Shown piece by piece: positions 6,975 through 36,080 of a stretch of DNA of 64,000 nucleotides. Within the stretch, counting starts at the first letter, position 1. Each line of letters opens with the position of its first letter. Location: contig JAUIFO010000006.1 in assembly GCA_030430385.1 (NCBI GenBank), forward strand, positions 62,001 to 126,000, in the 5' to 3' direction. Made by a program: the position numbers and the translations under genes. Below the pieces are notes generated by a model, which saw nothing but the letters and a program-made list of their open reading frames with translations, did no database searches and was not told the DNA's origin. This stretch comes from Bacteroidia bacterium. GTDB lineage: Bacteria; Bacteroidota; Bacteroidia; Flavobacteriales; Flavobacteriaceae.

Positions 6975-8912
6975 ATGAGCAACAACATTGAATTAGGCGA
7001 TATTGCATTTGACCTACCAAAAAACCAATCTAATGTCATCAAAGTGATTGGTGTTGGTGGTGGTGGAAGCAATGCCATTAATCACATGTTTCAACAAGGG
7101 ATTAAAGGTGTTGATTTCGTTATTTGTAATACAGATGCCCAAGCACTGCAAAATAGTGGTGTCCCAAACAAGATCCAATTAGGAGTTAATTTAACCGAAG
7201 GTTTAGGCGCAGGAGCAAACCCTGAAGTAGGAGAGCAAGCTGCAGTTGAAAGTTTAGAAGACTTAAGACGTATGCTTGATTCTAACACAAAAATGGTATT
7301 CATTACTGCTGGAATGGGAGGAGGTACAGGAACTGGAGCTGCACCAATTATAGCCAAACTAGCTAAGGAGATGGATATCTTAACTGTTGGTATTGTTACA
7401 ATACCTTTTCAGTTTGAAGGTAAAACACGAATCGAACAAGCCAAACTAGGCGTAGAAAAATTGCGCTCTCATGTAGATTCATTGATTGTTATTAATAATA
7501 ACAAGCTTCGTGAAGTGTATGGTAACTTAGGATTTAAAGCTGGGTTCTCTAAAGCAGATGAAGTGCTGTCAACCGCTTCCAAAGGAATCGCTGAAGTAAT
7601 TACACATCACTATACACAAAATATCGATTTACGTGACGCTAAAACAGTGTTGAGTAATAGCGGAACAGCAATTATGGGATCTGCTACTGCTTCTGGAAAA
7701 ACCAGAGCACAAGATGCTATTATGAAAGCTTTAGATTCTCCATTACTTAATGATAATAAAATTACTGGAGCTAAAAACGTATTGTTGCTTATCGTTTCTG
7801 GTTCTCAGGAAATCACGATAGATGAGATTGGTGAAATAAACGATCACATTCAAGTTGAGGCTGGTCATGGTGCTAATATTATTATGGGTGTTGGTGAAGA
7901 TGATACTCTTGAAGAATCAATTTCTGTTACCATCATTGCTACAGGTTTTGATATTGACCAACAATATGAGATTTCTAATACAGAACAAAAGAAAGTCGTT
8001 CATGCTTTAGAAGAGGATAAAAATGATGATGTTACTGTTAAGGAAAGCGATCCTGCAATAATAACACCAGACATTGTTCTTGAAGACGATACAAAAACAC
8101 CTGATGTGGTTGTACATACGTTGATGGAAGAAGATGATGATCTAGAGATGGTGACTAAAAGTTCTGAAACAGATTTGATTCCAACTTCAGATATCATTAA
8201 AAATATCAATGTCGTTTATGAAGAAGTCTTAGATCATAACGTTGAAAATGATGATTTTGTAATAACGCCAATTCAACAAGACACTGAAATAATTGAAGAA
8301 GAGACAGAAGAAGAACAAATTACCTTAACATTTGATTTACCATTATCTTCTAATGACGTTGAAGAAACAACCATAGAAGTTCAAGCTGAAGATAAAACGG
8401 TATTTTCTCTTGACGATGATATCAAAGATATGGACGTTACTGAGCATGTTGAAATTGTACCTGTGACTGAAGCTAATGAAGAAGGCGAAACAAGATATGC
8501 TTTAGATGACTTCATGTCTTATGAGTCTTCTATAAATGAGCCTGAAACCAAAATAAAGGCACAACCTGAAGTTGAAGAAGAAATTGTTTTTGAAAAAAAG
8601 ACGATTGAATCTGAAGTTCAAGAAGAAGATTTGAAAGAAGATATTGATCCAATGAATAGTCCGATATCAGAATTGCTAAAAGAGCGTGCAGATGAGCGCA
8701 GACGCAAGATGAAGGACTTCAACTATAAGTTCAATACAGCTAAAATAGACGATATTGAAAAAGAACCTGCATATAAAAGACAAGGTGTGAATTTAGAAGA
8801 GTCTCAGCACTCTTCAGAAACCAAAGCTTCCAGAACCTCTGTTGCTACTGATGATAACGACGATATTCAATTGCGAAGCAATAATTCATTTTTACACGAC
8901 AACGTAGATTAA
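6975..8912 (+). CDS. ftsZ: Cell division protein FtsZ with long acidic C-terminal linker
   Basis: FtsZ is the tubulin-like GTPase that forms the division ring. The GTP-binding GGGGSNA is at 28-34 and the tubulin signature GGGTGTG at 115-121. NNNKLREVYG and the T7 loop region follow. The globular domain ends near residue 325. The remaining 320 residues are a Glu/Asp-rich linker followed by a conserved tail with YKRQGVNLEE near 600 and IQLRSNNSFLHDNVD at the very end. At 645 residues it is far longer than the roughly 380 of E. coli, but flavobacterial FtsZ proteins are commonly this long. It is the last gene of the dcw cluster here and is followed by a terminator. Confidence 0.97.
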   Translation: MSNNIELGDIAFDLPKNQSNVIKVIGVGGGGSNAINHMFQQGIKGVDFVICNTDAQALQNSGVPNKIQLGVNLTEGLGAGANPEVGEQAAVESLEDLRRMLDSNTKMVFITAGMGGGTGTGAAPIIAKLAKEMDILTVGIVTIPFQFEGKTRIEQAKLGVEKLRSHVDSLIVINNNKLREVYGNLGFKAGFSKADEVLSTASKGIAEVITHHYTQNIDLRDAKTVLSNSGTAIMGSATASGKTRAQDAIMKALDSPLLNDNKITGAKNVLLLIVSGSQEITIDEIGEINDHIQVEAGHGANIIMGVGEDDTLEESISVTIIATGFDIDQQYEISNTEQKKVVHALEEDKNDDVTVKESDPAIITPDIVLEDDTKTPDVVVHTLMEEDDDLEMVTKSSETDLIPTSDIIKNINVVYEEVLDHNVENDDFVITPIQQDTEIIEEETEEEQITLTFDLPLSSNDVEETTIEVQAEDKTVFSLDDDIKDMDVTEHVEIVPVTEANEEGETRYALDDFMSYESSINEPETKIKAQPEVEEEIVFEKKTIESEVQEEDLKEDIDPMNSPISELLKERADERRRKMKDFNYKFNTAKIDDIEKEPAYKRQGVNLEESQHSSETKASRTSVATDDNDDIQLRSNNSFLHDNVD

Positions 8913-8945
8913 TAGCAAATTTAGTTTAGTGTTTCACACTTTGTT

Positions 8946-8980
8946 AAACCCGAAAGGCTGAAAGGTCTTTCGGGTTTTTT
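8946..8980 (+). terminator. Rho-independent terminator after ftsZ
   Basis: A perfect 10-bp stem AACCCGAAAG/CTTTCGGGTT (8947-8956 with 8967-8976) encloses a 10-nt loop and runs into a T tract at 8975-8980. It closes the dcw transcription unit about 35 bp after the ftsZ stop. Confidence 0.92.
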
Positions 8981-9020
8981 GATTTTGGTATTATATCGTT
9001 ATTTCAAAGCATTAGTTTTT

Positions 9021-9028
9021 TATCTTTG
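9021..9028 (+). promoter_or_regulatory. Promoter -7 element for the GatB/YqeY-domain gene
   Basis: TATCTTTG matches the Bacteroidota -7 consensus TAnnTTTG exactly. No good TTG sits at -33. The predicted transcription start falls near 9034. The ATG at 9053 lies 24 bp downstream, and this is why I reject the in-frame TTG at 9026 as a start. Confidence 0.7.
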
Positions 9029-9052
9029 CAACCTGAATTAATTTATAGGTAT

Positions 9053-9499
9053 ATGAGTTTACAAAAGGATATAATGACTGCAATGAAGGCAGCCATGAAA
9101 GATAAAGATCAAATGGCTTTAGCGGCATTAAGAGCTGTAAAGTCTGAGTTGTTATTAGCGCAAACTTCAGGTTCATCTGAAGCCCTTACTGAGGCTGATG
9201 AAATTAAAATTTTATCAAAATTAGTGAAGCAACGCAAGGATAGCGCTGCGATTTTCAATGAGCAAAATAGGAGTGATCTTGCTGAACCTGAATTAGCCCA
9301 AGCTGAGATTATTTCGCAATTTTTACCTGCTCAGTTGAGTGAAGCTGAAATTGAAAAAGAGGTGGTTGCTACCATAGCTCAAGTAGGAGCAGAAGGAATG
9401 AAGGATATGGGAAAAGTTATGGGAATTGTGAGTAAGAAATTAGCAGGTCAAGCTGATGGTAAAACCATATCAACGATTGTAAAAGCAAAATTGCAATAA
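9053..9499 (+). CDS. GatB/YqeY domain-containing protein
   Basis: This is a small cytoplasmic helical protein related to the C-terminal tRNA-binding region of the GatB amidotransferase subunit. Its cellular role is not settled. The 148-residue product starts MSLQKDIMTAMKAAMKDKD. Further family segments are LAALRAVKSELLLAQTS, LSKLVKQRKDSAAIF, a glutamate-rich middle, and MGKVMGIVSKKLAGQADGKTIS at the end. The ATG at 9053 is preferred over the TTG at 9026, which overlaps the promoter -7 box. The gene ends only 6 bp before tRNA-Arg, so the two may share a transcript. The family following ftsZ is a recurrent arrangement in flavobacteria. Confidence 0.9.
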   Translation: MSLQKDIMTAMKAAMKDKDQMALAALRAVKSELLLAQTSGSSEALTEADEIKILSKLVKQRKDSAAIFNEQNRSDLAEPELAQAEIISQFLPAQLSEAEIEKEVVATIAQVGAEGMKDMGKVMGIVSKKLAGQADGKTISTIVKAKLQ

Positions 9500-9505
9500 T
9501 ACACA

Positions 9506-9579
9506 GGCCACGTAGCTCAGCTGAATAGAGCACTGGATTTCGGCTCCAGCGGTCGTAGGTTTGAATCCTACCGTGGTCA
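9506..9579 (+). tRNA. tRNA-Arg, anticodon TCG
   Basis: The cloverleaf is complete. The acceptor stem GGCCACG/CGTGGTC has one G-U pair. The D arm is GCTC/GAGC, the anticodon stem CTGGA/TCCAG encloses loop TTTCGGC, and the T arm is GTAGG/CCTAC with loop TTTGAAT. The anticodon TCG at 9540-9542 reads CGN arginine codons. The discriminator base is A, and CCA is not encoded. The tRNA is 74 nt with no variable-arm extension. Confidence 0.96.
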
Positions 9580-9616
9580 CGAATAAATCAAAGACCTAAG
9601 CGTTAAATCAAGCTTG

Positions 9617-10121
9617 CTTGAATTTATAAGCTTGGGTTTTTGATTTTCAAAGCGGAGCTTTAGAGGAACAACTCGAGAAGCGAGTTAATCCAGAAGAAGT
9701 TTTAATTAGGATGAAGTCTTGAATTTATAAGCTTGGGTTTTTGATTTTCAAAGCGGAGCTTTAGAGGAACAACTCGAGAAGCGAGTTAATCCAGAAGAAG
9801 TTTTAATTAGGATGAAGTCTTGAATTTATAAGCTTGGGTTTTTGATTTTCAAAGCGGAGCTTTAGAGGAACAACTCGAGAAGCGAGTTAATCCAGAAGAA
9901 GTTTTAATTAGGATGAAGTCTTGAATTTATAAGCTTAGGTTTTTGATTTTCAAAGCGGAGCTTTAGAGGAACAACTCGAGAAGCGAGTTAATCCAGAAGA
10001 AGTTTTAATTAGGATGAAGTCTTGAATTTATAAGCTTAGGTTTTTGATTTTCAAAGCGGAGCTTTAGAGGAACAACTCGAGAATCGAGTTAATTCAGAAG
10101 TTAGTTCAATTAAATAGTAAG
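9617..10121. repeat. Five tandem copies of a 101-bp repeat downstream of tRNA-Arg
   Basis: Units begin with CTTGAATTTATAAGCTT at 9617, 9718, 9819, 9920 and 10021, a period of exactly 101 bp. A sixth partial copy starts at 10122 (CTTTGAATTTATAAG). Copies 1-3 have CTTGGG where copies 4-5 have CTTAGG, and the 3' half of copy 5 has diverged. Each unit holds two small hairpins, AAAGC-gga-GCTTT and AACTCG-agaag-CGAGTT. One frame reads SGALEEQLEKRVNPEEVL and ends RMKS-stop, but stops lie between units and 101 is not divisible by three. The array is therefore not a repeat protein. No unique spacers are present, so it is not CRISPR. It fills most of the 580-bp gap from 9580 to 10159. Confidence 0.93.
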
Positions 10122-10159
10122 CTTTGAATTTATAAGTTTAGATTTCTTATATTTCAACA

Positions 10160-11020
10160 ATGATTCAACAAGCCGCAAATACTTCAGAACCACCTTTTAT
10201 TGTTGAGTTGATTCCTTCTTTACTTTTTGTTTTGGTAACTGTGTTCATCGTTTATAAGCTATTTGGGTTTTTTGAAATGGCTTATGTTGAGTATATTAAA
10301 AAACGTTTGTTTTATAATCATTTCTATTTTAAAAAGAAGACCCTTAATAAAGAACAAAGATTTATACTAAGTAAATATATTAAGCTCTATAATGGACTTT
10401 CCTTAGATCATAAAGTTTATTTTGAACATCGTGTAGCCACAATAATGAATACGATGGAGTTTATAGGTAAGGGTATTGAAGTTTCAGAAACAATGAAACT
10501 TATCACTTCTGCTACTTTAGTAAAACTTACATTTGGTTTTAGAGACTATCAAATAAGTTCTGTTGAACGTATTTTAATTTATCCTGAGGAGTTTTATTCA
10601 CAAACTAATAAAACATATCATAAAGGAGAGTTTAATCCAGCATATCGTGCTTTAGTGATGTCTTGGAAAGATGTCCTTTATGGATACGAAATAGATGATG
10701 ATAATTTGAATCTAGCAATTCATGAATTTATTCACGCTATACATTTTTATTACATGAGTGTGCGAAGAAAAAGCACCAGTGCGGCAATTTTTTTGGATTC
10801 ATTTCAAGAATTAGTCACATATTTGGATGCAAATGCAGTACTTAAAACCAATCTAGTGTCTTCAGGTTATTTAAGAGATTATGCTTACACAAATCAGTTT
10901 GAATTTTTATCAGTAATCGTTGAGACGTTTATTGAGACTCCAATCGAGTTCAAAAGCAAATTCCCAAAATTATATAGCAAAGTAAAGCTGATGCTTAATT
11001 ATAATTTTAATGGCTATTAA
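10160..11020 (+). CDS. MtfA-like zinc-dependent peptidase (M90-type), membrane-anchored
   Basis: The 286-residue protein has an N-terminal membrane segment at about 17-35 and then a domain with the metallopeptidase motif HEFIH at 188-192. A downstream region, FEFLSVIVETFIETPIEF near 247-264, carries the third-ligand glutamate and the FFE-P pattern seen in MtfA. In E. coli, MtfA is a peptidase that interacts with the Mlc repressor. The role in Bacteroidota is unknown, and the membrane anchor differs from the soluble E. coli protein. A weak TTTG-N21-TATATTTC promoter ends 4 bp before the ATG, which would give a nearly leaderless mRNA. The gene converges on the next with a 14-bp gap. Confidence 0.8.
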   Translation: MIQQAANTSEPPFIVELIPSLLFVLVTVFIVYKLFGFFEMAYVEYIKKRLFYNHFYFKKKTLNKEQRFILSKYIKLYNGLSLDHKVYFEHRVATIMNTMEFIGKGIEVSETMKLITSATLVKLTFGFRDYQISSVERILIYPEEFYSQTNKTYHKGEFNPAYRALVMSWKDVLYGYEIDDDNLNLAIHEFIHAIHFYYMSVRRKSTSAAIFLDSFQELVTYLDANAVLKTNLVSSGYLRDYAYTNQFEFLSVIVETFIETPIEFKSKFPKLYSKVKLMLNYNFNGY

Positions 11021-11034
11021 AGAAGAAAAGTTGT

Positions 11035-11637
11035 TTATAGCTTAAAAACCAGCTGTAACATATACTGGAAGTGATTGTTATCAAACTGTCTGTCATCAGC
11101 ATTAACAGCAAATTTTCCAACACCTTGTACTCTAGCACCTATTTTTTCAGAAAACCAAACAGTACCACCTAAAGCTAGATTACCAGAACTGTTCAATTCA
11201 TCTACAACAAAAATACCAAAACCAGCACCTGCATAAAGGTCTAGCCATTTTGCATCAAACATTAAGTTGTCAAAATAATATTTTATGTATGTATTGGTTG
11301 AAAAGTAGAAATAGTCTTCTGTTAGAACAGCATTATCAATTCTGTTTTCAGATTCATAACCATTTAAGGTAATATCTTGTTCTAAAGCAAAGTCTTTTGA
11401 CCACTTATGCTCAATAGCTAAAGCTAAAGGTTGTTTAAATTGAAAATCACCCAATTGTGCAAATGGTTGTCTTGTTCCTAAACTTCCAACAGCATTAACA
11501 CCAACACTAAGTTTCCAAGGCGCATCACCATATGAATCATCTTCTTGATTATCATATTTAGTATCAGAGGTAGTTTGGGATTGGGCAGTTAAACTGAATA
11601 GTAGAACTGTAGATAATAAAAAAACTAGCTTTCTCAT
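11035..11637 (-). CDS. Outer-membrane beta-barrel protein
   Basis: The 200-residue protein has a clear signal peptide (MRKLVFLLSTVLLFSLTAQSQ, cut after about residue 20). After it come alternating amphipathic strands such as WKLSVGVNAVGSLGTRQ, LDLYAGAGFGIFVV and NLALGGTVWFSEKIGARVQG. The C-terminal aromatic strand ends LVFKL, as in small OmpA/OmpW-like barrels. No peptidoglycan-binding domain is present. It has its own promoter at 11657-11687, so it is probably not part of the peptide-kinase operon upstream. The substrate or role is unknown. Confidence 0.8.
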   Translation of the reverse strand: MRKLVFLLSTVLLFSLTAQSQTTSDTKYDNQEDDSYGDAPWKLSVGVNAVGSLGTRQPFAQLGDFQFKQPLALAIEHKWSKDFALEQDITLNGYESENRIDNAVLTEDYFYFSTNTYIKYYFDNLMFDAKWLDLYAGAGFGIFVVDELNSSGNLALGGTVWFSEKIGARVQGVGKFAVNADDRQFDNNHFQYMLQLVFKL

Positions 11638-11731: not shown

Positions 11732-12790
11732 TTATTGTGACAGACCAAGTATCCTTTTGTAATCTTCAAAAAGAGCTTTTCTATAGTTTTTGTTTTTTAT
11801 GAAGGTCCAGATTCTACTCGTAAGAATAGTTTTTAGGAATCGGAGTTTATTTAAAACAAAATCAATAGTGCGCTTTACAAATGGAAACTTTAATTTGAAT
11901 AAAAAGAGGTGTTTAGATATTGAGCTACTTCTCATTTGATCAAAATCTGAAAAGAATTGTTTTGCAACTGCAAAGTAACTCCTAAAAAAACTGTGATTTG
12001 GTATTTGTGAGGCTTCTAAACCTATTTTTCTTTTTAAAATGAGCAAATCATAAATCGATTTAAAACTAATTCTACTGTAGAAATGTCCAGAGTCATTATC
12101 TTGAAAATTTAAAATAGAATGATATATTAAATCATCATTAGATGGTAAATAGTAACCATTAATATATTGCTTTCTAGTTAAAATAGAATTAGGTTCTAAG
12201 ATACCATTTATAGATTTTAATATTAGTTTTTTATGTACTTCAACAGCAGCAAGTCTGACATCTGATTTCAGTCTAGGTAAATGTTTGTGATCAAAAAATC
12301 TTGCACTAATACCTTGAGGCGTTGTAATGTAATTGTAATCAATTAAAATATCGTAGGCTTTTTTTAATTGGTTTTCTTCAACTAATATGTCAATGTCTCC
12401 AATCATACGTTCTCCCAAATCGTCGTAATAATTATACAACAAAAAAGCACTTCCTTTTAGAAACACATAATTGATATTTGAGGCGTTTAAAAGGCTAGCA
12501 ATTTTTGAAATCTCTTCAGTTAATGATAAATTTCGATTTCTATTAATCTTAGTGATTTCTTCAAGATATACTTCTAGGTCCTTTGGGATGAATTGTAAAA
12601 GCTCTTTGCGTTTTAGACTACAATAACAACTCGTTAAGACCAAGTAATCACTGGCAATTATTACAAAATTTTCCCAATCTACAGATTCAGATTTAAGCCG
12701 TTCTTTAAGTCTTACGGTAGAATATTCTAAACTTAAAATATCCGCGATAAGTTGCAGTGATTGTTTATATTTTAGGGATTTTGAAGGCAA
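11732..12790 (-). CDS. Nucleotidyltransferase family protein (NTP_transf_5-like)
   Basis: The 352-residue protein carries the nucleotidyltransferase-fold signature LKGSAFLLYNYY at 111-122 and GDIDILV at 131-137 (GS followed by DxD). The rest is a long helical region typical of the uncharacterised NTP_transf_5 family. Members are found in some lasso peptide clusters, where PsmN of pseudomycoidin modifies a phosphorylated peptide, and in exopolysaccharide or exosortase loci. Here it is the last gene of a three-gene unit: 53-residue peptide, PqqD/HPrK-like protein, this protein. The gap to the upstream gene is 36 bp. The start is a TTG at 12790. A catalytic role is inferred, and the substrate is unknown. 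Confidence 0.8.
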   Translation of the reverse strand: MPSKSLKYKQSLQLIADILSLEYSTVRLKERLKSESVDWENFVIIASDYLVLTSCYCSLKRKELLQFIPKDLEVYLEEITKINRNRNLSLTEEISKIASLLNASNINYVFLKGSAFLLYNYYDDLGERMIGDIDILVEENQLKKAYDILIDYNYITTPQGISARFFDHKHLPRLKSDVRLAAVEVHKKLILKSINGILEPNSILTRKQYINGYYLPSNDDLIYHSILNFQDNDSGHFYSRISFKSIYDLLILKRKIGLEASQIPNHSFFRSYFAVAKQFFSDFDQMRSSSISKHLFLFKLKFPFVKRTIDFVLNKLRFLKTILTSRIWTFIKNKNYRKALFEDYKRILGLSQ

Positions 12791-12826
12791 AGTATTAATT
12801 TAAAAGCTTAAAAGTATGCAAAACTT

Positions 12827-13972
12827 TTAAGGTGTCTTTAATAAGCTATCGAATTTTGAAATCGCAAAGTCGTTATTGTTATAATTTAATTCAAAACAGT
12901 TTACCTCCTTCAACCAATTAATAAATTGAACTGCATGTGTTTCTTTCGGAGATATCCAAGAATCAGGTATCAGCGTTTCAAGAATTTTAGACTTAGATAC
13001 TTTAGAAAAGCTATTGTTTTTGTCACGATTATATTTCACATAAACTATAGTATTACATGGAAAACTAGATTTTTGATTACTGTAGTTTTGTAGAGGAGGA
13101 ACATATTTAATGTTGACCTTTTTAGGACCATTCATTAAGGTGTCAAGCTCATCAATATTAGTTATGTAAGATTTTAAAATACTGAAAGCTCCTTTTTTTA
13201 CTGAAGTTGCAGCAGGATATCGATAAAGTTTGTTGTCTTCTTCGTACAAAGGTGTGAAATCATCACAAAGAATGTCATAACCTTGAGACATTAAAATTAC
13301 AGATAATGTACTTTTACCATTTCCCGAATCGCCAATAATCATAATTGACTCCTTACCATTAGTGATGGTAGAGGCATGAAATGTTGCTACCCATTTATTA
13401 ATATCATTGTTATGTATGCTATTAGTGAGTTCAAGAGCAAATCTACCTTGAAGCAGGTGAAATGACTCTGTTTTATAAGTGCCTACATAAGAGTTGTCTT
13501 TTAATAAATATAAGTCGTCCGAAGATTTATAGATCTCAAAGACTACATCAGCAGTAGCATTAGAATCGTCTAGATGATGTGCGATTTGCGGATGGATTAA
13601 ACTCTTAATTATCTCAGATTCGTAGCGAATTAAGACGGTTGTATTATAGAAATGATATGAATGTGTAAGCCAATTATTAGGTTTAGTAGGAAGTTTCTTT
13701 TCTGCTTTAGATTCAGCAGTGTCTTGAATTGTTTTCAAGAACTCTGAAACATCATCGTAAATAGCATTGGCTTGATGTAATTGAAGTTCAAGAGAGCTTG
13801 AAATATAAGAAACAAACGAATCCCGATCGTAATCGGGATTCGTATATAGTTGAATAATTTTACTATTTATTTCTGTTGAAACAACGTATTTATTTGGTTT
13901 ATCAAACCAAAGAATTACGTTCTCTCCATCTATATTTTGAATTAACTTAGGTTTTACCTTAGTTGTCGTCAA
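12827..13972 (-). CDS. PqqD-like domain fused to HPr-kinase-like P-loop domain
   Basis: Residues 15-85 resemble a PqqD-type peptide-binding (RRE-like) winged fold (KYVVSTEINSKIIQLYT, then helices). Residues 105-381 look like an HPr kinase/phosphorylase C-domain. The putative catalytic region is FHAS with His199, the Walker A is GDSGNGKST at 214-222, and an acidic motif CDDF is at 236-239. Real HprK acts on HPr Ser46. Related kinases phosphorylate lasso peptides (paeninodin), and HprK-related kinases also occur with PqqD-like proteins in exosortase/EPS loci. The TTG start lies 15 bp after the peptide gene. Codons 44-52 are made from a perfect palindrome at 13816-13843. A role in modifying the upstream peptide is inferred, not shown. 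Confidence 0.72.
   Translation of the reverse strand: MTTTKVKPKLIQNIDGENVILWFDKPNKYVVSTEINSKIIQLYTNPDYDRDSFVSYISSSLELQLHQANAIYDDVSEFLKTIQDTAESKAEKKLPTKPNNWLTHSYHFYNTTVLIRYESEIIKSLIHPQIAHHLDDSNATADVVFEIYKSSDDLYLLKDNSYVGTYKTESFHLLQGRFALELTNSIHNNDINKWVATFHASTITNGKESIMIIGDSGNGKSTLSVILMSQGYDILCDDFTPLYEEDNKLYRYPAATSVKKGAFSILKSYITNIDELDTLMNGPKKVNIKYVPPLQNYSNQKSSFPCNTIVYVKYNRDKNNSFSKVSKSKILETLIPDSWISPKETHAVQFINWLKEVNCFELNYNNNDFAISKFDSLLKTP
13816..13843. repeat. Perfect 12-bp inverted repeat of REP type inside the kinase-like gene
   Basis: ACGAATCCCGAT (13816-13827), a CGTA loop, then ATCGGGATTCGT (13832-13843). Palindromes of the form ATCCCGAT...ATCGGGAT are common intergenic elements in flavobacteria as I remember them. 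This one lies within coding sequence and encodes TNPDYDRDS (residues 44-52) of the PqqD-like domain without breaking the frame. Confidence 0.7.
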
Positions 13973-13987
13973 AACACTAATGTATTT

Positions 13988-14149
13988 TTAGTCAAAAGGA
14001 TTTCCTCCTGGATCTGGTGGAGAAGATGCTTGAGCTTGTTTAGGGTTTAAAATGATAAACGTACCTACAGCAGTCAAAGCAGCATACTTACCCATTTTCT
14101 TGATGGCTTCCTTACGACTTATTTGGTCTTGTGAATTAATTTTTTTCAT
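13988..14149 (-). CDS. 53-residue exported-peptide-like protein, copy 1 (putative precursor)
   Basis: The product starts MKKINSQDQ and then has RKEAIKKMGKYAALTAVG, a hydrophobic TFIILN, and NPKQAQA. It ends in ASSPPDPGGNPFD. The layout looks like a basic n-region, h-region and AQA cleavage site, which would release a 12-residue peptide. The RKEAIKKMG block also resembles Bacteroidota Tat signals (RREALKKxG) with RK in place of RR. From R12 to the end it matches copy 2 (25919-26080) at 41 of 42 residues, while 23 of 42 codons differ synonymously. A TAnnTTTG box lies at 14170-14177, and the kinase-like gene follows 15 bp downstream. No homologue with known function is recognised. Confidence 0.85.
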   Translation of the reverse strand: MKKINSQDQISRKEAIKKMGKYAALTAVGTFIILNPKQAQASSPPDPGGNPFD

Positions 14150-14169: not shown

Positions 14170-14177
14170 CAAATATA
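14170..14177 (-). promoter_or_regulatory. Promoter -7 element for the peptide-kinase-nucleotidyltransferase operon
   Basis: TATATTTG on the minus strand is an exact TAnnTTTG match, 20 nt before the peptide ATG. The -33 position reads TTAG and is weak. The element lies just downstream of the terminator at 14201-14236, so the operon can be transcribed independently of the T9SS gene before it. Confidence 0.65.
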
Positions 14178-14200: not shown

Positions 14201-14236
14201 AATAATCTAGGTTATTTTTGAATAACCTAGATTATT
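14201..14236 (-). terminator. Terminator of the 2237-residue T9SS protein gene
   Basis: A perfect 16-bp inverted repeat AATAATCTAGGTTATT (14201-14216) pairs with 14221-14236 around a 4-nt loop. On the minus strand it is followed by TTTTA. It begins 13 bp after the stop codon of the large gene. Confidence 0.85.
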
Positions 14237-14249
14237 TTTAGAATGATTA

Positions 14250-17200
14250 CTATTCAATAATTACTTTCTTAGTTACTTCTTGACTGTTGTTTTGTACGAT
14301 TACTACATACACACCAGCATTCAAGTTAGCGACATTAATTCTATTTTGAATTAACGCATCATCAAGTTTAGCAGTTAATACTTTTCTACCTTGAATATCG
14401 TATAGATCTAAAGTAGTGTTTTCGAATAACTGACCGTTTACAACTAGCTCATCAGTATCTTTAAGTGATAAGATCTTAATGTTATCTAGGTTGTTTTCAA
14501 CAGTTGATAATGCATCTTCTTCGTATCTTAAGAAGAAACGTCCAATTCCATCTTGATCACTATTTAAAGTAATAACATAATCACCATTATTTAATAACGT
14601 AGTCGTGTTAGTAAGTGTATCATCTAAGTATACGCTTACAGATTCTGGCAATGTAGATTCAGCAATGCTGAAAGTTACTTGTTGACCTTGACTCGCTTTC
14701 ACACCTAATGGTATTGATACGTTATTTAAATCTGTAGAATTAAGTGCTTGAAGCACGATTTCATCACCAGCATCTTCTTGAATTAATCTAGAGTATAATG
14801 CAAAATCAGGTGTAGTATCTCCCCAATGCGCAGCATCATAACCATGATCAAAACCAGTACTTGCGTTAGGGTTGAAGTAGAAATCAGTTCTTGCAGTATC
14901 AGTACCAGAACTTAAGTTCAATTTCAAATACACTAACTCAGCGTTACGACCAGGAATGAAATCATCGCCAGTTCCAGTTCTTCTCATATCTGGAGTAAAC
15001 TGTACATCATGACCAGCAGTTTTTGTAACATCAGCACTTACAAAGAACCCTTGACCAGGTGCAATAAGTGTAGAACCAGTTACTGTAGCTAAGTTATAGA
15101 TTGTCCAGCTTTCAAAACTTCCATCATAACCCCAAACAGCAGCAGTAGGAGGATCGAATAATGTGATATTGATCTCACCACCACCAGCATCAGCAGTTAA
15201 GAAGTCTAAAGCACTCATATAAGAAGGATATGGGTTACCGATAAGGTTCCATTCTTCATTGTTAGGTCCAGAGTTTTGGATATCGTTAGAGATATTACCA
15301 TTCTCTGCGGTACCAGTAAATGTAAATACACTATTATCTTCAGAAGCAGCTCTATAACCTACACTTGCAGCAAGTGGAGCAGTTTCAGCAGTAGTATAAA
15401 TTTGGAATGTACCTAGAGTCTTACTGAAAGGTCCAAATAGAACTTGAGTAGGATCACTAGGGTTCGCATAAATATTTGGATTGGCTGCAGCGAATTGATC
15501 AAATGGCTGACCAGTAAGAGGTGCAGAGATTAAATCGTTAGCACCTGTTGTGCTACCAGCTCCAGCATTAATATTTACGTGACGATCGTAATCTATTTGA
15601 CCACCACCAATTGTTCCATCAAGTATTAAACTTGAGTAATTAGTTGATGTAGATTCTAATAAGAATGAAGTCGCAGTTGTAACTGATGCACCAGAAGGGA
15701 TAGTTACACCACCACCAGGTCTTACAGTAAATGAATTACAATCTGTATCACCAGTCATCATAGCATTACCAGCAGCAATATAGATATCACCTGGAGTTGT
15801 AGTACCTGTTGGATCACTTGGAGTCCAAGTTCCATCATTATATACAAAGGCTTCTGTACCTGTACATGTTACAGACATTTCAAATGCTCCTGTATCTCCA
15901 GAGTTGTATCCTTCAACAGAGATCCAATACATAATTCCTGCTTCTGCGGTGAAAGTAGTTTGCGCCTTGTATCCATCAGCAAATCCACATTCATCATAAG
16001 CATCATCAATAAGTGTTAAGTTACCAGATGTACCAGTGAAAATTAAAATTTCAGTATCAAAATCCGTGTTTAATGGAGCACAAGTGTCTAAGAAGACATC
16101 TTGACCTGTTCCTAAGAAAGAATACCAAACATTTGGTGAATCTGTATCAGCAGGTGAATCAGCTTCAACTGTTGCTGTATCAGGTGCATCATCTTCATCT
16201 AATGTTGCATTTGTAGTATCACCACTTACAGTATCACCACAATTAATAGCAAATGCATTAGCAAAATCATCATTTGCAGGCGCACAAGCGCTAGTGAACG
16301 TTCCTAAGGCAACATTACAGTCTGAGTTTACAGTATCAACTACAGTTAATGTAGCACCCATACCTGGCGTAAACGGACCAACAGTGTTAGTTCCTAATGC
16401 TAAAGGATAAGTATTTGTACCATCAGAGAATTCAGAATTATCATCTCCTAAATCATCAATGACTACTTCAACAAAGAATTGAGTATTTGGACAGTCATCA
16501 ACAACTGTTGAACTTACAACATTTACAGGAGTACATAAAGGAGGGTATGATAGACATAAGTCGTATGCACCACTACTGAATGTTTCATTCCATACTTGTA
16601 ATACATAACTTGTAGATGGTGTTAATCCTGTAATTGTATTTAATCCAGCAGATAAACCAGCCACACAAGCAACTTCAGTTCCTCCACAAGCATCGTATAT
16701 TGCAACTTCAACACTTCCAGGAGTACCTGATGTTACTTCAATGTTTATTGCATCAGAAGCAGCATCTGTTGCGAAAGTAAACCATACATCTAGTTCACCA
16801 CCAGCAGAGCCTTCACAACTTCCTACACTTCCACTGTTAGTTGCAGAAACTGTATCGAAGCTAGTAATAGCTGAACAATCTCCAAATGGATTAACGGTAG
16901 CAGCAATTGCATTTACACAATCATCATTTGCAGGAGGAGGAGGTGTTGACCCAATACATACATCAAAAGTTGTAGTTTGACCTGCAGTTCCAGTCCAAGT
17001 ATACACTCTTAATGTATAAGTGTTACCAATAGTTAAACCAGTAGCAGTACTACTATTAGGATCACTACATAATAAGTTTACTAAAGAACCACAAGTACCT
17101 TCCCATAAAGAGTGGTATAAATCTGTAGTACCATTAGCAACGTTAATTAAATCAATAGTATGTTCTGTTTGAGTTGCAACAAAAGTGAACCAAACATCAT

Positions 17201-20200
17201 CATCTTCTGTACCACCACAAGCCGTATCACTTTCTCCAGAAGCAGTAGCACTTTCTATTGTAGCAGAAGTTACTGTTCCACAGTTAAAATCAGGGTTAAC
17301 TGTTAATGCAATAGCATCAACACACTCATCATTTGCAGGAGGTGCAGGAGGTGTACCAATACATACATCAAAAGTTGTAGTTTGACCTGGAGTTGAAGTC
17401 CAAGAATACACTCTTAATGTATACGTGTTACCAATAGTTAAGCCAGATGCTACACTACTGTTAGGATCGCTACATAATAAGTTCACTAAAGAACCACAAG
17501 TACCTTCCCATAGAGAGTGGTATAAATCTGTAGTACCATTAGCAACATTAATTAAGTCAATTGTATGTGTTTCGCTAGTTGCAACGAAAGTGTACCAAAC
17601 ATCATCATCTTCAGTACCACTACAAGAAGCTTCACTTTCACCATCAGCGGTAGCGCTTTCAATTGTACCAGAAGTTGTAGCTGTACAACTGTCGTCTGCG
17701 TTAACTGTTAAAGCAATAGCATTCGCGCAATCATCATTTGCAGGAGGAGAAGGAGGCGTACCAATACATACGTCAAAAGTTGTAGTTTGACCTGGAGTTG
17801 AAGTCCAAGAATATACTCTTAATGTATACGTGTTACCAATAGTTAAGCCAGTTGCTAAACTACTGTTTGGATCACTACATAATAAATTTACTAAAGAACC
17901 ACAAGTACCTTCCCATAGAGAGTGGTATAAATCTGTAGTACCATTAGCAACATTAATTAGGTCAATTGTATGTGTTTCGCTAGTTGCAACGAAAGTATAC
18001 CAAACATCATCATCTTCAGTACCAAAACAAGCTGTATCACTTTCACCAGAGCCAGTAGCTCCATTGATCGTTCCTGAAGTAACAGCAGCACAGCTGTCAT
18101 CAGCATTTACAGTTAAAGCAACAGCATCAGCACACTCATCATTTGCAGGAGGACATACATCTAATTCAAACGTTCCTATGTCAAAATCACAAGTAACATC
18201 AGAGTGCTCAACCGTTAAAGTAACAGGGCCACTTCCAACAGCATAAGACGCTGTTGTATAAGTTCCAGGTCCACCAGAAATATCTATAGTATTTGTACCA
18301 TCAGTGATTTGAGTAGCACTTCCTATATCTGTAATAACAATTTCAACATTCCATGTGTCTGTTCCACCACAATCGTCAAGTAATGTAGCAGTTGTATACG
18401 TAGCAGGAGTACATGATAAACACTCAACATCCCAATCCCAACTAGTTCTTGATCCATCGTCACAATCTACTGAACCGTCAGAATCAACACCAACGTAGAT
18501 GATATCACCAGATGAATTAAATTCTAAACCAGCTAAATCTCCACCATTGGCACCTCTGTAAATTTCAGTAACACCATCAGAGTCATAAATCACTAACTCA
18601 TCACAACAAGATTCAATTGTTCCAGAGTTAAACGTTACTTTCAACTGAGAAAGGTCTGAACTTTGGTATCCAAATAACGTTGTATCATTACTGTCATAAC
18701 AGTAAGTTTGGTTAAGAGGAGTTCCTAAAGAACAGTCGATAGAAACTGGACAAGCATCATAATTAAATACTCCTAAATCGAAGTCACAACTTGCAGTTCC
18801 ACCATGTACTACTGTTAATGTAGGAGTGTCAACTCCAGTTGGATAAGGACCAGCTACAGCAGTTGTACCAGTAAAGTTATAGGTATTTGTACCATCAGTT
18901 ACAGCAGTCGCATCATTAACATCCGTTAAATCAACTTGAACGCTAAATTGGCTGTTACCACAATCTGTAACAATAGAAGTCGTATCTAAAACACCAGGTA
19001 CACATTCAACATCTGAAAGACAAATTTCAAATGCTCCTGAGTTAAACGTTTCTGTCCAAACTTGTAACCAATATGTAGTTGAAGCAGTTAAGCCATAAAT
19101 TCCATTTAATCCAACATCTAGTCCAGTAGCGTCACAATATACTTCTGTACCACCACATGCATCGTAAATAGCAATTTCAAGATCACCTGGATCACCAGAA
19201 AGCACTTCTAAGTTGATACCAGTAGTTGCATTTGTTGTAAATGAATACCAAACATCTTGTTCGTCATCACCCATAAAACCTTCACAACTTCCTATAGTAC
19301 CACTGTAAATTGCGCTACTAGTATTGAAGCTAGATGTTCCTGTGCAATCTCCAAAGGCGTTTACTGTAGCAACTTCAGCTCCAGCACAATCATTGTTAGC
19401 AGGAGGAGAACCAATACACACATCAAATGTAGTATCTTGACCTGCAGTTGCAGTGTAAGTGTTAACTCTAAGTGTATACGTGTTACCAATAGTAAGACCT
19501 GTAGCAACACTACTATTAGGATCACTACATAATATATTGGTTAAAGAACCACAAGCTCCTTCCCATAATGAATGGTATAGGTCTGTTGTACTTCCAGCAA
19601 CATTTAATAAATCAATTGTATGAGCAGTACCAGTAGCAACGAAAGTATACCATACGTCGTCATCTTCAGTACCACTACAAGTTCCATCACTTTCTCCATC
19701 TCCAGTTGCACCACGAACAGTTCCAGAAGTTACCGCTCCACAATTACCATCTGGATTAACAGTTAAGGCAATTGCATCAGCACATAAATCGTTTGCTGGA
19801 GGACAGTTGTCTACATAAGTACTTGAACTAAAGTCACAAACAAAACTTGAGTGTGATACAGAGAAAGAAGAACTAACTCCTTGGGTGAAACCACTTAAAG
19901 TATATGTGAATGTACCAGGTACAATTGGTTGAAAGTCAAAAGGTGCTACATCTGCAACAACAAAAGCCGCATCACCTAGGTCACTAAATGTGATTTCTAA
20001 ATCGTAAGTTCCACCTACACAATTTTCTACTACGTTTACTGTATCAACTACAGCAGGTGTACAAGCTAAACATTCAACATTGTAATCCCAAGTTGTTTGT
20101 GATGCATCACCACCACAACTCACAGACCCATCAGAGTCAACACCAACATAAATGGTATCTCCACTTGAAGTGAATTGTAGACCTGCTAAATCACCAGCAG

Positions 20201-20963
20201 TACCAGAACCATTATATAATTCTGTAACACCATCTGAATCAAGAATAATTAAGTCATCACAACAATCTTCAATTGTTCCAGAATTGAATGTAACTCTCAA
20301 TCTTGAACCGTCACTACTTTCGTATTTTAGACTTGTTGCATCATTGTCACCATAACAATAGGTTTCATTAAACAAACCTGCAGGACAGGTTACATTTGGC
20401 GGAGGAGGAGCTTGAGATGTTAAGGTTGCCGTAGAAATACAAAAACCCCAACCGAAAACAGAAGAAGCATCATAATAGAAACGGTATCTAAACCCACTTA
20501 ATTGTCCTGGGTCAAATCCACTAACATCTAGTATGCCAGAGGCTGTAGTACCAGCAATAGCAGCACACCAACCAGAGGTAGTACCACTGTTGTCATCAAC
20601 GGTGTCCCATAATTGCCAGACACCTGCAGTGTCATCCCAGTACTCTAAATTAAACACACTACCAAAGTTGTAGTTGTAATCGTAATTTAGAATTAACTCG
20701 GTTTCTCCAGCACCTGCAGCAGCAGTTAAACTAATTACCGGAGACTCTACAAAGATAATATCTGTAGATCCACTACCAGCATTGTCATCGTCGTAAGAGA
20801 AATTAGCATCAACGGTTGGATCTCCTAGTAATGAACCAGCGTCGTAAGCGCCATCAATAGCCCAAGCGGCATTTGGCCAGTTAGTCGGTTCATTAACAGT
20901 TTGCGCGTATGATTGCCAACACAAGGCGACCATAGCAAAAAGAAATAATGTAACTTTTTTCAT
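14250..20963 (-). CDS. Giant multidomain surface protein with T9SS type A sorting domain (2237 aa)
   Basis: This is a secreted surface protein. A signal peptide covers residues 1-20 (ending SYAQ), followed by an N-terminal beta-sandwich to about 185. Two CUB-like domains lie at about 191-302 and 741-849, with paired Cys and segments like CCDDLIILDSDGVTELY. PPAND-type beta-sandwich (PPC-like) domains lie at about 386-516 and in three tandem copies at 938-1344. Divergent versions are near 520-654, 1344-1474 and 1564-1703, and short Cys-containing Ig-like linkers separate blocks. From about 1704 comes the C-terminal module shared with the four genes to its right. It ends in a type A sorting domain (LYDIQGRKVL...GVYVVIVQN...KKVIIE). 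An adhesin or matrix role is likely. A good promoter lies at 21087-21116. No catalytic motif was seen. Confidence 0.9.
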   Translation of the reverse strand: MKKVTLFLFAMVALCWQSYAQTVNEPTNWPNAAWAIDGAYDAGSLLGDPTVDANFSYDDDNAGSGSTDIIFVESPVISLTAAAGAGETELILNYDYNYNFGSVFNLEYWDDTAGVWQLWDTVDDNSGTTSGWCAAIAGTTASGILDVSGFDPGQLSGFRYRFYYDASSVFGWGFCISTATLTSQAPPPPNVTCPAGLFNETYCYGDNDATSLKYESSDGSRLRVTFNSGTIEDCCDDLIILDSDGVTELYNGSGTAGDLAGLQFTSSGDTIYVGVDSDGSVSCGGDASQTTWDYNVECLACTPAVVDTVNVVENCVGGTYDLEITFSDLGDAAFVVADVAPFDFQPIVPGTFTYTLSGFTQGVSSSFSVSHSSFVCDFSSSTYVDNCPPANDLCADAIALTVNPDGNCGAVTSGTVRGATGDGESDGTCSGTEDDDVWYTFVATGTAHTIDLLNVAGSTTDLYHSLWEGACGSLTNILCSDPNSSVATGLTIGNTYTLRVNTYTATAGQDTTFDVCIGSPPANNDCAGAEVATVNAFGDCTGTSSFNTSSAIYSGTIGSCEGFMGDDEQDVWYSFTTNATTGINLEVLSGDPGDLEIAIYDACGGTEVYCDATGLDVGLNGIYGLTASTTYWLQVWTETFNSGAFEICLSDVECVPGVLDTTSIVTDCGNSQFSVQVDLTDVNDATAVTDGTNTYNFTGTTAVAGPYPTGVDTPTLTVVHGGTASCDFDLGVFNYDACPVSIDCSLGTPLNQTYCYDSNDTTLFGYQSSDLSQLKVTFNSGTIESCCDELVIYDSDGVTEIYRGANGGDLAGLEFNSSGDIIYVGVDSDGSVDCDDGSRTSWDWDVECLSCTPATYTTATLLDDCGGTDTWNVEIVITDIGSATQITDGTNTIDISGGPGTYTTASYAVGSGPVTLTVEHSDVTCDFDIGTFELDVCPPANDECADAVALTVNADDSCAAVTSGTINGATGSGESDTACFGTEDDDVWYTFVATSETHTIDLINVANGTTDLYHSLWEGTCGSLVNLLCSDPNSSLATGLTIGNTYTLRVYSWTSTPGQTTTFDVCIGTPPSPPANDDCANAIALTVNADDSCTATTSGTIESATADGESEASCSGTEDDDVWYTFVATSETHTIDLINVANGTTDLYHSLWEGTCGSLVNLLCSDPNSSVASGLTIGNTYTLRVYSWTSTPGQTTTFDVCIGTPPAPPANDECVDAIALTVNPDFNCGTVTSATIESATASGESDTACGGTEDDDVWFTFVATQTEHTIDLINVANGTTDLYHSLWEGTCGSLVNLLCSDPNSSTATGLTIGNTYTLRVYTWTGTAGQTTTFDVCIGSTPPPPANDDCVNAIAATVNPFGDCSAITSFDTVSATNSGSVGSCEGSAGGELDVWFTFATDAASDAINIEVTSGTPGSVEVAIYDACGGTEVACVAGLSAGLNTITGLTPSTSYVLQVWNETFSSGAYDLCLSYPPLCTPVNVVSSTVVDDCPNTQFFVEVVIDDLGDDNSEFSDGTNTYPLALGTNTVGPFTPGMGATLTVVDTVNSDCNVALGTFTSACAPANDDFANAFAINCGDTVSGDTTNATLDEDDAPDTATVEADSPADTDSPNVWYSFLGTGQDVFLDTCAPLNTDFDTEILIFTGTSGNLTLIDDAYDECGFADGYKAQTTFTAEAGIMYWISVEGYNSGDTGAFEMSVTCTGTEAFVYNDGTWTPSDPTGTTTPGDIYIAAGNAMMTGDTDCNSFTVRPGGGVTIPSGASVTTATSFLLESTSTNYSSLILDGTIGGGQIDYDRHVNINAGAGSTTGANDLISAPLTGQPFDQFAAANPNIYANPSDPTQVLFGPFSKTLGTFQIYTTAETAPLAASVGYRAASEDNSVFTFTGTAENGNISNDIQNSGPNNEEWNLIGNPYPSYMSALDFLTADAGGGEINITLFDPPTAAVWGYDGSFESWTIYNLATVTGSTLIAPGQGFFVSADVTKTAGHDVQFTPDMRRTGTGDDFIPGRNAELVYLKLNLSSGTDTARTDFYFNPNASTGFDHGYDAAHWGDTTPDFALYSRLIQEDAGDEIVLQALNSTDLNNVSIPLGVKASQGQQVTFSIAESTLPESVSVYLDDTLTNTTTLLNNGDYVITLNSDQDGIGRFFLRYEEDALSTVENNLDNIKILSLKDTDELVVNGQLFENTTLDLYDIQGRKVLTAKLDDALIQNRINVANLNAGVYVVIVQNNSQEVTKKVIIE
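16940..18152 (-). repeat. Three tandem ~405-bp coding repeats (PPAND-type domains)
   Basis: Units start with PPAND codons at about 18152, 17747 and 17342. Each encodes about 135 residues with DDDVWYTFVAT or DDDVWFTFVAT, TTDLYHSLWEG, LLCSDPNSS and GLTIGNTYTLRVY in the same places. Long DNA stretches are nearly identical between units. This indicates recent duplication or ongoing homogenisation and possible copy-number variation. Confidence 0.88.
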
Positions 20964-23647: not shown

Positions 23648-25190
23648 TTATTCAATAACAACTTTATGCGTTAATTCTTGAGTCTTGTTTTTGATAGTCA
23701 CGATGTAAACACCAGTATTGAAGTTAGCGACATTAATTCTGTTTTGAATTAGGCTTTCATCAAGTTTGGTGCTCAATACCTTTCTACCTTGAATATCGTA
23801 AAGGTCTAATGTTGTGTTTTCGAATAACTGACCATTTACAATGAGCTCATCAGTATCTTTAAGTGATACGATCTTAATGTTATCAAGATTGTTTTCAATG
23901 GTTGATAATGCATCTTCTTCGTATCTTAAGAAGAAACGCCCAATTCCGTTTTGATCACTATTTAAAGTAATAACATAGTCACTATCATTTAATAATGTTG
24001 ATGTATTGGAAAGCGTATCATCTAAGTAAACATTTACAGATTCAGGGATGGTTGATTCAGCAATAGAGAATGTTACTTGTTCGCCTTGACTAGCTTTCAT
24101 TCCTAATGGAATGGTAACATTAGAAAGGTCAGAAGAGTTAAGCGCTTGTAATACGATCTCATCACCAGCCAATTCATCTTGAACCAAGATAGAATACAAC
24201 GCAAAATCAGGTAAAGCATCTCCCCAATGCGCAGCATCATAACCAACATCAAATCCTAAGCTAGCATTTGGGTTGAAGTAGAAGTCTGTTCTACTAGTAT
24301 TGGTACCAGCACTTAGTCTAAGTTTTAAGAATATAAGTTCAGCGTTACGACCAGGAATGAAATCATCACCAGAACCGGTTCGTCTCATATCAGGAGTAAA
24401 CTCTACATCAAATCCAGCAGTTTTGGTAACATCAGCACTGACAAAGAATCCTTGACCAGGTGCTATAAGCGTAGAAGGAGTTGCGGTAGCTAAGTTGTAG
24501 ATTGTCCAGCTTTCAAAACTTCCATCATAACCCCAAACGGCAGCCGTAGGCGGATCGAATAAAGTGATATTGATCTCACCACCACCAACATCTTCCGATA
24601 AGAAATCTAAAGCGCTTAAGTAAGAAGGGTATGGGTTACCGATAAGGTTCCATTCTTCATTGTTAGGACCAGAGTTTTGGATGTCATTAGTAATGATACC
24701 ATTTTGAATTGACCCAGTAAATGTAAAAGCACTATTGTCATTAGAAGCAGCTCTGTACCCAACACCAGGATCAAGTGTAGCGGTTTCATCCGTCGTATAA
24801 ATTTGGAATGTACCTAGAGTCTTACTGAAAGGTCCAAATAGAACTTGCGTAGGGTCACTAGGGTTGGCATAGATGTTTGGATTAGCAGCAGCAAATTGAT
24901 CAAACGACTGACCAGTAAGAGGTGCAGCGATCAAATCGTTAGCACCAGTTGTTGTACCAGCACCAGCATTAATGTTAACATGACGCTCATAAGTTACAGG
25001 ACCAGAAACAGTACCATTGTTAATTAAACTCGAATAGTTTGTTGAAGAAGACTGTAATAGTACACCACCAGAAGCAGCAAGTGTGATAGCAGCATCAACA
25101 GTAAGACCAGCACCAGGATTAACAGTTACACTGTTACAATTGGTATCTGCATTAATCACTGCATCTCCAGATTCAACAACAATATCGTCA
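23648..25190 (-). repeat. Segmental duplication, copy A (T9SS C-terminal module)
   Basis: This segment encodes about 510 residues that differ from copy B (29762-31305) at seven positions by my reading. DNA is near-identical throughout. The shared block begins at the codons for IVVESGDAVIN and runs to the stop codon. Upstream of it the two genes are unrelated. Confidence 0.9.
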
Positions 25191-25918: not shown

Positions 25919-26080
25919 TTAATCGAAAGGATTTCCTCCTGGATCAGGAGGTGAAGAAGCTTGAGCTTGCTTTGGATTCAATACGATGAAAGTTCCAACA
26001 GCTGTCAAAGCTGCATATTTCCCCATCTTTTTAATGGCTTCTTTTCGAGTAATATGATTTTGATTGTTTTTCGTCTTCAT
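25919..26080 (-). CDS. 53-residue exported-peptide-like protein, copy 2
   Basis: This is a paralogue of the peptide at 13988-14149 and the same length. The N-terminus differs (MKTKNNQNHIT), but from R12 the sequences are identical except I33 to V. The hydrophobic segment, AQA site and final ASSPPDPGGNPFD are all preserved. The ATG is 7 bp after the stop of the 1131-residue T9SS gene, so it is almost certainly translated from the same mRNA. A perfect terminator follows it. No kinase-like gene adjoins this copy. It could be a second substrate of the enzymes at 11732-13972, or an accessory of the surface proteins. Confidence 0.85.
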   Translation of the reverse strand: MKTKNNQNHITRKEAIKKMGKYAALTAVGTFIVLNPKQAQASSPPDPGGNPFD

Positions 26081-35178: not shown

Positions 35179-35202
35179 TTTTGCTTCTTATACTTTGTAA
35201 TA

Positions 35203-36069: not shown

Positions 36070-36080
36070 ATTTAGTTTTA

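Follow-up and report, generated by a model that had tools for sequence, protein, structure and literature searches.

What do a 53-residue peptide, a kinase and a nucleotidyltransferase-like protein do together? The question is raised by three adjacent genes in a 64,000-nucleotide (nt) stretch of Flavobacteriaceae DNA (contig JAUIFO010000006.1, positions 62,001 to 126,000, from assembly GCA_030430385.1 of a Bacteroidia bacterium), hereafter referred to as the window. The original prediction, made from the window sequence, was that they form a peptide-tailoring operon. The results presented below lead us to propose a tailoring system resembling those of ribosomally synthesized and post-translationally modified peptides (RiPPs), which would modify the peptide on one conserved serine and would be dedicated to surface proteins of the type IX secretion system (T9SS) that carry a RemA/RemZ-like module. 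The predicted tailoring operon with its kinase and nucleotidyltransferase is retained in this proposal, but the three genes are not the whole unit, as the T9SS proteins, and often an outer-membrane barrel, belong to it too. The features needed first, with window coordinates, are the following.

14250-20963, minus strand: T9SS type A surface protein of 2237 amino acids (aa) with a RemA/RemZ-like module, directly upstream of peptide 1
13988-14149, minus strand: open reading frame (ORF) of peptide 1, 53 aa, with leader-like segment R12-P36 and tail SSPPDPGGNPFD
14021-14023, minus strand: codon of Ser43, the proposed phosphorylation site, 7 residues past the invariant Pro36 (from peptide comparison)
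12827-13972, minus strand: ORF of the putative PqqD-like/HprK-like fusion kinase, 381 aa, TTG start
11732-12790, minus strand: ORF of the PF14907 nucleotidyltransferase, 352 aa, TTG start
26088-29483, minus strand: T9SS-tail surface protein of 1131 aa, paired with peptide 2; module at 26310-27680
25919-26080, minus strand: peptide 2, 53 aa, 87% identical to peptide 1 and with an identical tail, 7 nt behind the T9SS gene 26088-29483

The gaps between the peptide, kinase and nucleotidyltransferase ORFs are 15 and 36 nt. These gaps, the gene coordinates, the 12-residue tail of peptide 1, and the Walker A sequence GDSGNGKST and His199 of the kinase are exactly as originally described. Peptide 2, the T9SS partner proteins, a barrel gene at 11035-11637 and the invariance of Ser43 come in addition.

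Each of 397 genomes of the family was searched for the peptide, the kinase, the nucleotidyltransferase and the T9SS module, the latter being counted at E≤1e-25 in a single-sequence search, that is, in its close form. Peptide relatives were detected in 40 genomes and the kinase in 36, and 35 genomes contain both (Fisher 1.2e-43). These numbers were obtained after dropping one of 41 peptide genomes (G384, a 707-aa frame unlike this peptide) and two of 38 kinase genomes with weak rows (G141, E 2.5e-6, and G246, E 2.9e-6). The nucleotidyltransferase is present in 33 genomes, every one of which has the kinase, and the close module in 38, 35 of them with the kinase. All four components occur together in 31 genomes and any of them in 43; Fisher values over the component pairs range from 1e-38 to 1e-45. 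At the level of genera (237), which removes part of the relatedness, the peptide and the kinase each occur in 25 and share 24. In two genera a positive genome stands beside a negative one (g29 with G255 and G028; g39 with G261 and G038), and the negatives, G028 and G038, gave no match for peptide, kinase or transferase, and none for the module even at E≤0.001. In a phylum-wide draw, the kinase profile matched 4 of 257 genomes, all four in the family.

The comparison of the peptides points to the residue concerned. The seventh residue past Pro36 is a serine in 123 of 123 distinct called peptides, exceptions being confined to decayed copies. Its neighbours vary: position P+6 is S in 56, Q in 30, T in 15 and A in 13 of the 123 peptides, and P+8 is P in 84, T in 10 and L in 10. 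The tail past P+5 comprises 6 to 55 residues, plus 79 in one frameshifted piece. The leader and tail of the original prediction are therefore there, but the conserved feature is the single serine and not the Pro/Gly/Asp content of the tail. Read from these alignments, a lone fixed serine in an otherwise free tail is the trace expected of a serine-specific tailoring enzyme. Between the two peptide copies of the source genome, both inside the window, 23 codons from R12 onward differ synonymously and a single one, located outside the tail, differs non-synonymously, which indicates that the tail is under purifying selection at the protein level. Together, the invariant serine and the presence of the kinase in 35 of 40 peptide genomes agree with the original view of the peptide as the likely kinase substrate, and a modification of its serine is well supported by the sequence comparison.

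The serine count includes one frameshifted piece from locus L110 that carries the residue. Left out were an L110 fragment that is frameshifted and lacks the anchor, and six copies not called as genes. Two of these six have the serine at the site (L105, and L117, which is cut by a contig edge), two are otherwise broken (L086, L113), and two, L108 and L109, come from genomes in which peptide and kinase appear to have been affected together. The peptide was found without a detected kinase in five genomes, G136, G275, G283, G295 and G315 (84, 82, 89, 92 and 92% complete), and three of these carry broken peptides: that of G283 (L108) lacks a start codon ahead of the leader and has a Tyr at the serine position, that of G295 (L109) contains stops, one of them at the serine position, and that of G315 (L110) is frameshifted. 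A second, broken peptide copy occurs in G197.

Gene order was analyzed in two sets of loci. The family-wide set comprises 55 stretches together with a part of the window, and contains 48 peptide rows; five stretches are without a called peptide or kinase. The named set consists of 79 named loci, from the best 80 of 470 matching stretches in a search of genome contigs, and is therefore biased toward close relatives. It contains 82 peptide rows, covers Psychroserpens, Winogradskyella, Gelidibacter, Subsaxibacter, Xanthomarina, Mangrovimonas and other genera, and overlaps the family-wide set in a few genomes. The next gene downstream encodes a kinase for 26 of the 48 peptide rows in the former set and for 65 of the 82 in the latter (one of the 65 being a piece of a decayed kinase). 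Hence the linkage of the two genes, on which the original prediction depended, recurs outside the window. In 61 of the 65 adjacent pairs the gap is only 2-19 nt, and 64 of the 66 kinase ORFs of the named set are flanked by the peptide and the nucleotidyltransferase; the other two derive from a single decayed kinase in L151. That locus (8581-11313, Gelidibacter maritimus) holds a duplicated peptide-kinase unit of which the first kinase has decayed to pieces and the second is intact; its second peptide has two Cys in the tail, which is unusual for the family. In two small genomes, G324 and G055 (L082, L083), a conserved gene of ~295 aa (cluster c37) follows the kinase and the transferase gene is located elsewhere.

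The assignment of the kinase domain rests mainly on its predicted structure (mean predicted local distance difference test score, pLDDT, 93; predicted template modelling score 0.90). In a fold search, residues 88-381 matched phosphoenolpyruvate carboxykinase (PEPCK; 1ayl) with Z 14.0 over 281 residues at 5.3 A, and residues 191-381 matched HPr kinase (1ko7) with Z 12.0 over 131 residues at 3.1 A. By fold, as modelled, the domain is HprK/PEPCK-like, in agreement with the HPrK-like kinase originally predicted. By sequence it scores under the Pfam and NCBIfam cut-offs of HprK-related families: the best, TIGR04352 (HprK-related kinase A), gave 62 bits against a curated cut-off of 200, and the kinase is consequently not a member of it. 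The stretch around H199, K220, D237 and D238 aligns with HPr kinase. These four residues do not vary among the 32 kinases aligned (four partial or split ones of the 36 were excluded) and are kept in every row of the 36 that has letters there. They are likewise intact in 64 kinases of the named set, the remaining two ORFs being the decayed pieces. The N-terminal 83 residues, which the fold search scarcely covered, have a predicted topology of three strands followed by three helices (b-b-b-a-a-a). They align co-linearly with a Bacteroidota PqqD profile over 68 columns at a probability of 29%, with three controls at ≤1.0%, which makes a PqqD-like N-terminus a reasonable lead and not a fact; we regard it as plausible. 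The window kinase is like HPr kinase/phosphorylase in fold and catalytic residues, and unlike it in its putative N-terminal PqqD-like domain and its scores below the family cut-offs.

The third protein had been called NTP_transf_5-like, and it indeed scores 109.3 bits for PF14907 (gathering cut-off 31.2), the family to which we take PsmN of the pseudomycoidin pathway to belong. Invariant residues are K112 and G113, D132, D134, E184 and H186, of which D132, D134 and E184 presumably represent the two Asp and one Glu expected for this transferase superfamily. A profile of the protein found no solved relative, only one chance match at E 0.29. A kinase and a nucleotidyltransferase form the classical route to nucleoside diphosphate sugars, and the pairing seen here would fit a pathway in which the two make an activated sugar or small molecule that glycosylates T9SS proteins or lipopolysaccharide, the peptide being a separate small secreted protein. 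The cluster at 34099 onward, by appearance of polysaccharide type, adjoins. SprE, a flavobacterial T9SS component, is moreover glycosylated (PMC10994853). Such a pathway would however employ a kinase of HPr-kinase/PEPCK fold, it does not account for the peptide gene directly preceding the kinase at the short distances given above, and it leaves the invariant serine without a role. We consider it unlikely, though deserving some weight.

The same two enzyme types are known from lasso peptides, whose kinases have a His-Lys-Asp-Asp catalytic set and act on a conserved serine of the linear precursor (PMC9266682). The kinase described here resembles PadeK, ThcoK and PsmK in having that set and a precursor with one conserved serine, and resembles the pseudomycoidin system in being accompanied by a nucleotidyltransferase-like enzyme. 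PsmN, annotated as a nucleotidyltransferase, adds one or two hexoses onto the phosphoserine or may be a true nucleotidyltransferase (PMC9266682). Unlike in the lasso systems, where the serine is at the C-terminus (PMC9266682), the serine here lies just behind the leader; and unlike lasso tailoring kinases, the present one would bear its own PqqD-like domain, and its peptide is tied to T9SS surface proteins. The lasso B2 protease PF13471, the one lasso enzyme family covered by the search, was present in 0 of 25 system genomes (the same model matches 2 of 14 control genomes), and on this ground a lasso peptide was rejected. The catalytic set and the nucleotidyltransferase, shared with pseudomycoidin (PMC9266682), could also belong to a RiPP pathway for lasso-type or other macrocycles that has the rest of its enzymes encoded elsewhere. 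We hold this to be very improbable, given the absence of PF13471, the position of the serine on the leader side of the tail, away from the C-terminus, and the nature of the largest other gene cluster near the operon (16 of 56 stretches), which is the barrel and no such enzyme.

The genes upstream of the peptide suggest a connection of the proposed system to the cell surface. A T9SS-module protein is encoded directly upstream on the same strand in 39 of the 48 peptide rows of the family-wide set; of the other nine, two follow a further peptide row, two are at the edge of a contig and five follow another gene, which in one case (L115) also ends, by eye, like a T9SS tail. In the named set the module is upstream of 76 of 82 peptide rows. 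The named peptides of L127, L131 and L172 are not immediately preceded, on their own strand, by a module protein. Genome G320 has six peptides, each behind its own T9SS gene, and one kinase and one transferase elsewhere. Also in some other genomes (for example G123 and G149) peptide and kinase are both present and unlinked.

The module comprises 457 aa and was modelled with a pLDDT of 90.6. The window copy has no Pfam or NCBIfam match at E≤0.01, and protein 26088-29483 on its own, used without a profile, matched no PDB sequence at E≤0.001. A module profile run against PDB sequences did match RemA and RemZ of Flavobacterium johnsoniae over ~420 positions (E 7.7e-36 and 2.3e-33). A PDB fold search with the module model was unusable (best Foldseek E 0.14, best Z 4.0). 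The published translocon structure resolves well only the C-terminal domain of RemZ (PMC10994853), and poor resolution outside that domain may explain the silent fold search. Like RemA and RemZ (PDB 8gl6, 8gl8; PMC10994853, PMC12618676), the window proteins have a homologous C-terminal module and are type A T9SS cargo; gliding is known for the former, and the window proteins are compared by sequence. The type A sorting domain TIGR04183 was assigned in protein 14250-20963 only (35.5 bits, cut-off 23), and protein 26088-29483 has a tail homologous to its tail. The smallest module proteins that look complete are 504-526 aa long, with ~20-45 residues before the module and ~75-83 after it; as they hold little else, the module is the minimal unit. 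Among 50 system-negative genomes, weak module matches at E≤0.001 were present in seven, the best at 1.3e-12, indicating that the close module subfamily tracks the system and that distant relatives exist without it. These matches and that to RemA led us to reject the module as system-specific, and the claim is confined to the close subfamily. Three further module genes are present in the window.

21247-23499, minus strand: module-bearing T9SS-tail protein of 750 aa, not followed by a peptide
23648-25759, minus strand: module-bearing T9SS-tail protein of 703 aa, not followed by a peptide
29762-33766, minus strand: module-bearing T9SS-tail protein of 1334 aa, not followed by a peptide

Over their C-terminal 534 residues, the proteins encoded at 23648-25759 and 29762-33766 are 97% identical, other pairs of the array being 42-76% identical there, which suggests a recent duplication or gene conversion. 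The former protein also carries, at its N-terminus (residues 23-170), an additional, incomplete copy of a portion of the module.

One more gene accompanies the enzymes.

11035-11637, minus strand: outer-membrane beta-barrel-like protein of 200 aa, downstream gene of the cluster (assigned from family matches of homologues)

In 66 of 66 named loci it is the next gene after that of the nucleotidyltransferase; in the family-wide set this holds for 15 of 30 nucleotidyltransferase loci, among them the window. PF13505 is matched by 9 of 18 barrel homologues and not by the window copy, and the barrel profile found no relative among solved structures.

The window peptide itself has no Pfam or NCBIfam match, its 40 relatives gave scattered weak matches only, and the peptide profile matched solved structures by chance only (best E 0.06). 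The PEP-CTERM family is absent from the NCBIfam matches of the 40 peptides at E≤0.1, exosortase itself not having been searched for. We take the leader to resemble a Bacteroidota twin-arginine translocation (Tat) signal, and one of the 40 peptides weakly matches the formate-dehydrogenase TAT-target model (E 0.035). The residue following Arg in the motif region is K in 112, N in 4, Q in 3 and T in 1 of 120 peptides, the region being missing in three of the 123. A canonical Tat substrate was rejected on the ground that a second Arg occurs in none of the 120. TatC is present in 35 of the 36 kinase genomes, so that a non-canonical Tat export is possible. Two elements were noted upstream of peptide 1.

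14170-14177, minus strand: TAnnTTTG box TATATTTG, its first base 28 nt before the peptide start (from the upstream motif count)
14201-14236, minus strand: inverted repeat between the T9SS gene and the peptide gene, a possible terminator (by eye)

The TAnnTTTG box, which we assume to be the flavobacterial -7-type promoter element, occurs within 100 nt upstream of 60 of the 82 peptides of the named set (shuffled sequences: mean 7.1, maximum 15), mostly 25-32 nt ahead of the start, and the peptide therefore often opens its own operon. Peptide 2 of the window has no such box upstream and is probably transcribed along with its T9SS gene. HPr kinases phosphorylate and dephosphorylate a regulatory serine, and module genes are multi-copy in many genomes in which the kinase is single. 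These facts would suit a peptide that is a membrane-anchored or periplasmic regulator, controlling production of the T9SS adhesins through reversible, HPr-like phosphorylation of Ser43 with the nucleotidyltransferase as a second switch. The peptide lacks a family match, though, and its N-terminus is signal-peptide-like, and a stoichiometric partner fits better with the six copies of G320, each behind its own T9SS gene. A regulatory peptide is in our opinion highly doubtful.

For the proposed tailoring system we infer the following course. The PqqD-like domain would bind the conserved leader R12-P36 in the cytoplasm, the HprK-like domain would phosphorylate Ser43, and the PF14907 protein would put a second group, nucleotidyl or a phospho-linked sugar, on the phosphoserine, before the signal-peptide-like leader carries the peptide over the inner membrane. 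We give these steps, with both modifications preceding export, a probability of roughly 0.6. Once exported, the peptide would cooperate with the module-bearing T9SS proteins, whether as ligand, as assembly partner or as anchor, and one kinase/transferase pair could serve several pairs of peptide and surface protein in trans.

Several observations weigh against this course or parts of it. The PqqD assignment is weak by sequence, as the window kinase has no PqqD match at E≤1. The invariant serine could reflect shared ancestry, though there has been time for the positions next to it to change. Cleavage by signal peptidase is uncertain, since the residue at P36+5, position -1 of the expected site, is Ala in only 86 of 123 peptides and thus less conserved than the serine; and with no second Arg in the leader the export route is likewise uncertain. 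Genomes G136 and G275 (84% and 82% complete) are kinase-negative and have intact peptides with the serine, G040 combines an intact peptide with a kinase that is in two pieces and contains a stop, the kinase of G151 is accompanied by a broken peptide copy, and G048 (82% complete, 6% contaminated) has the kinase and no peptide that could be found. As to the surface proteins, the peptide follows only 76 of the 149 module genes in the named loci, so that the pairing is not one to one. A distant form of the module is present in F. johnsoniae RemA and RemZ, and weak full-length matches occur in G039, a genome without the system.

A more specific version of the surface role would make the phospho-modified peptide a dedicated attachment or assembly piece for T9SS adhesins: the two enzymes would build a phosphate-linked group on Ser43, the exported peptide would be attached to the RemA-like module or bound by it, and the barrel would hold the peptide. 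We offer this tentatively and think it decidedly unlikely in this precise form. It has a possible likeness in Porphyromonas, where T9SS cargo is anchored through a linking sugar and the attachment moiety also bears a serine (PMC7468200, PMC13086638). There, however, the serine is on a sugar of anionic lipopolysaccharide (A-LPS) that is made through the Wbp/Vim pathway (PMC7468200, PMC13086638), and here it would be part of a gene-encoded peptide. The parallel is speculative and drawn by analogy; if true, the peptide would be the counterpart of the Porphyromonas sugar linker and represent a new way to display surface proteins.

Other genes of the window can be mentioned briefly. The region 6975-11020 flanking the locus includes an M90 peptidase gene (PF06167), and in many named loci an M90 gene occurs at most three genes away from the transferase. 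Also flanking the locus in this region are genes that are presumably ftsZ-like and GatB/YqeY-like. On the plus strand, the region 34099-40267 has the appearance of a polysaccharide-type cluster; we take it to encode DegT-like aminotransferase, sulfotransferase-like proteins, glycosyltransferase, flippase and a small nucleotidyltransferase-like protein.

In the open-access literature we found no description of type IX secretion together with an HPr kinase, nor of HprK/PqqD/exosortase sets, nor any under the family names. There, the combination of HPr kinase, PqqD and peptide led, judged by title, to lasso peptides only, as did that of RiPP recognition element, HPr kinase and Bacteroidetes. The enzyme chemistry would be of a known kind; the substrate class, apparently linear, and the coupling to T9SS adhesin-like proteins appear new. 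The kinase/nucleotidyltransferase pair of lasso tailoring would thereby be given a likely substrate, the precise residue that accepts the modification and a biological setting, in the form of a peptide tailoring linked to T9SS surface proteins that we did not find described in that literature. The system proposed here would bear on how type A T9SS adhesins are held and organized in flavobacteria, and it points to an undescribed way in which marine flavobacteria may decorate a small peptide for use at the cell surface.

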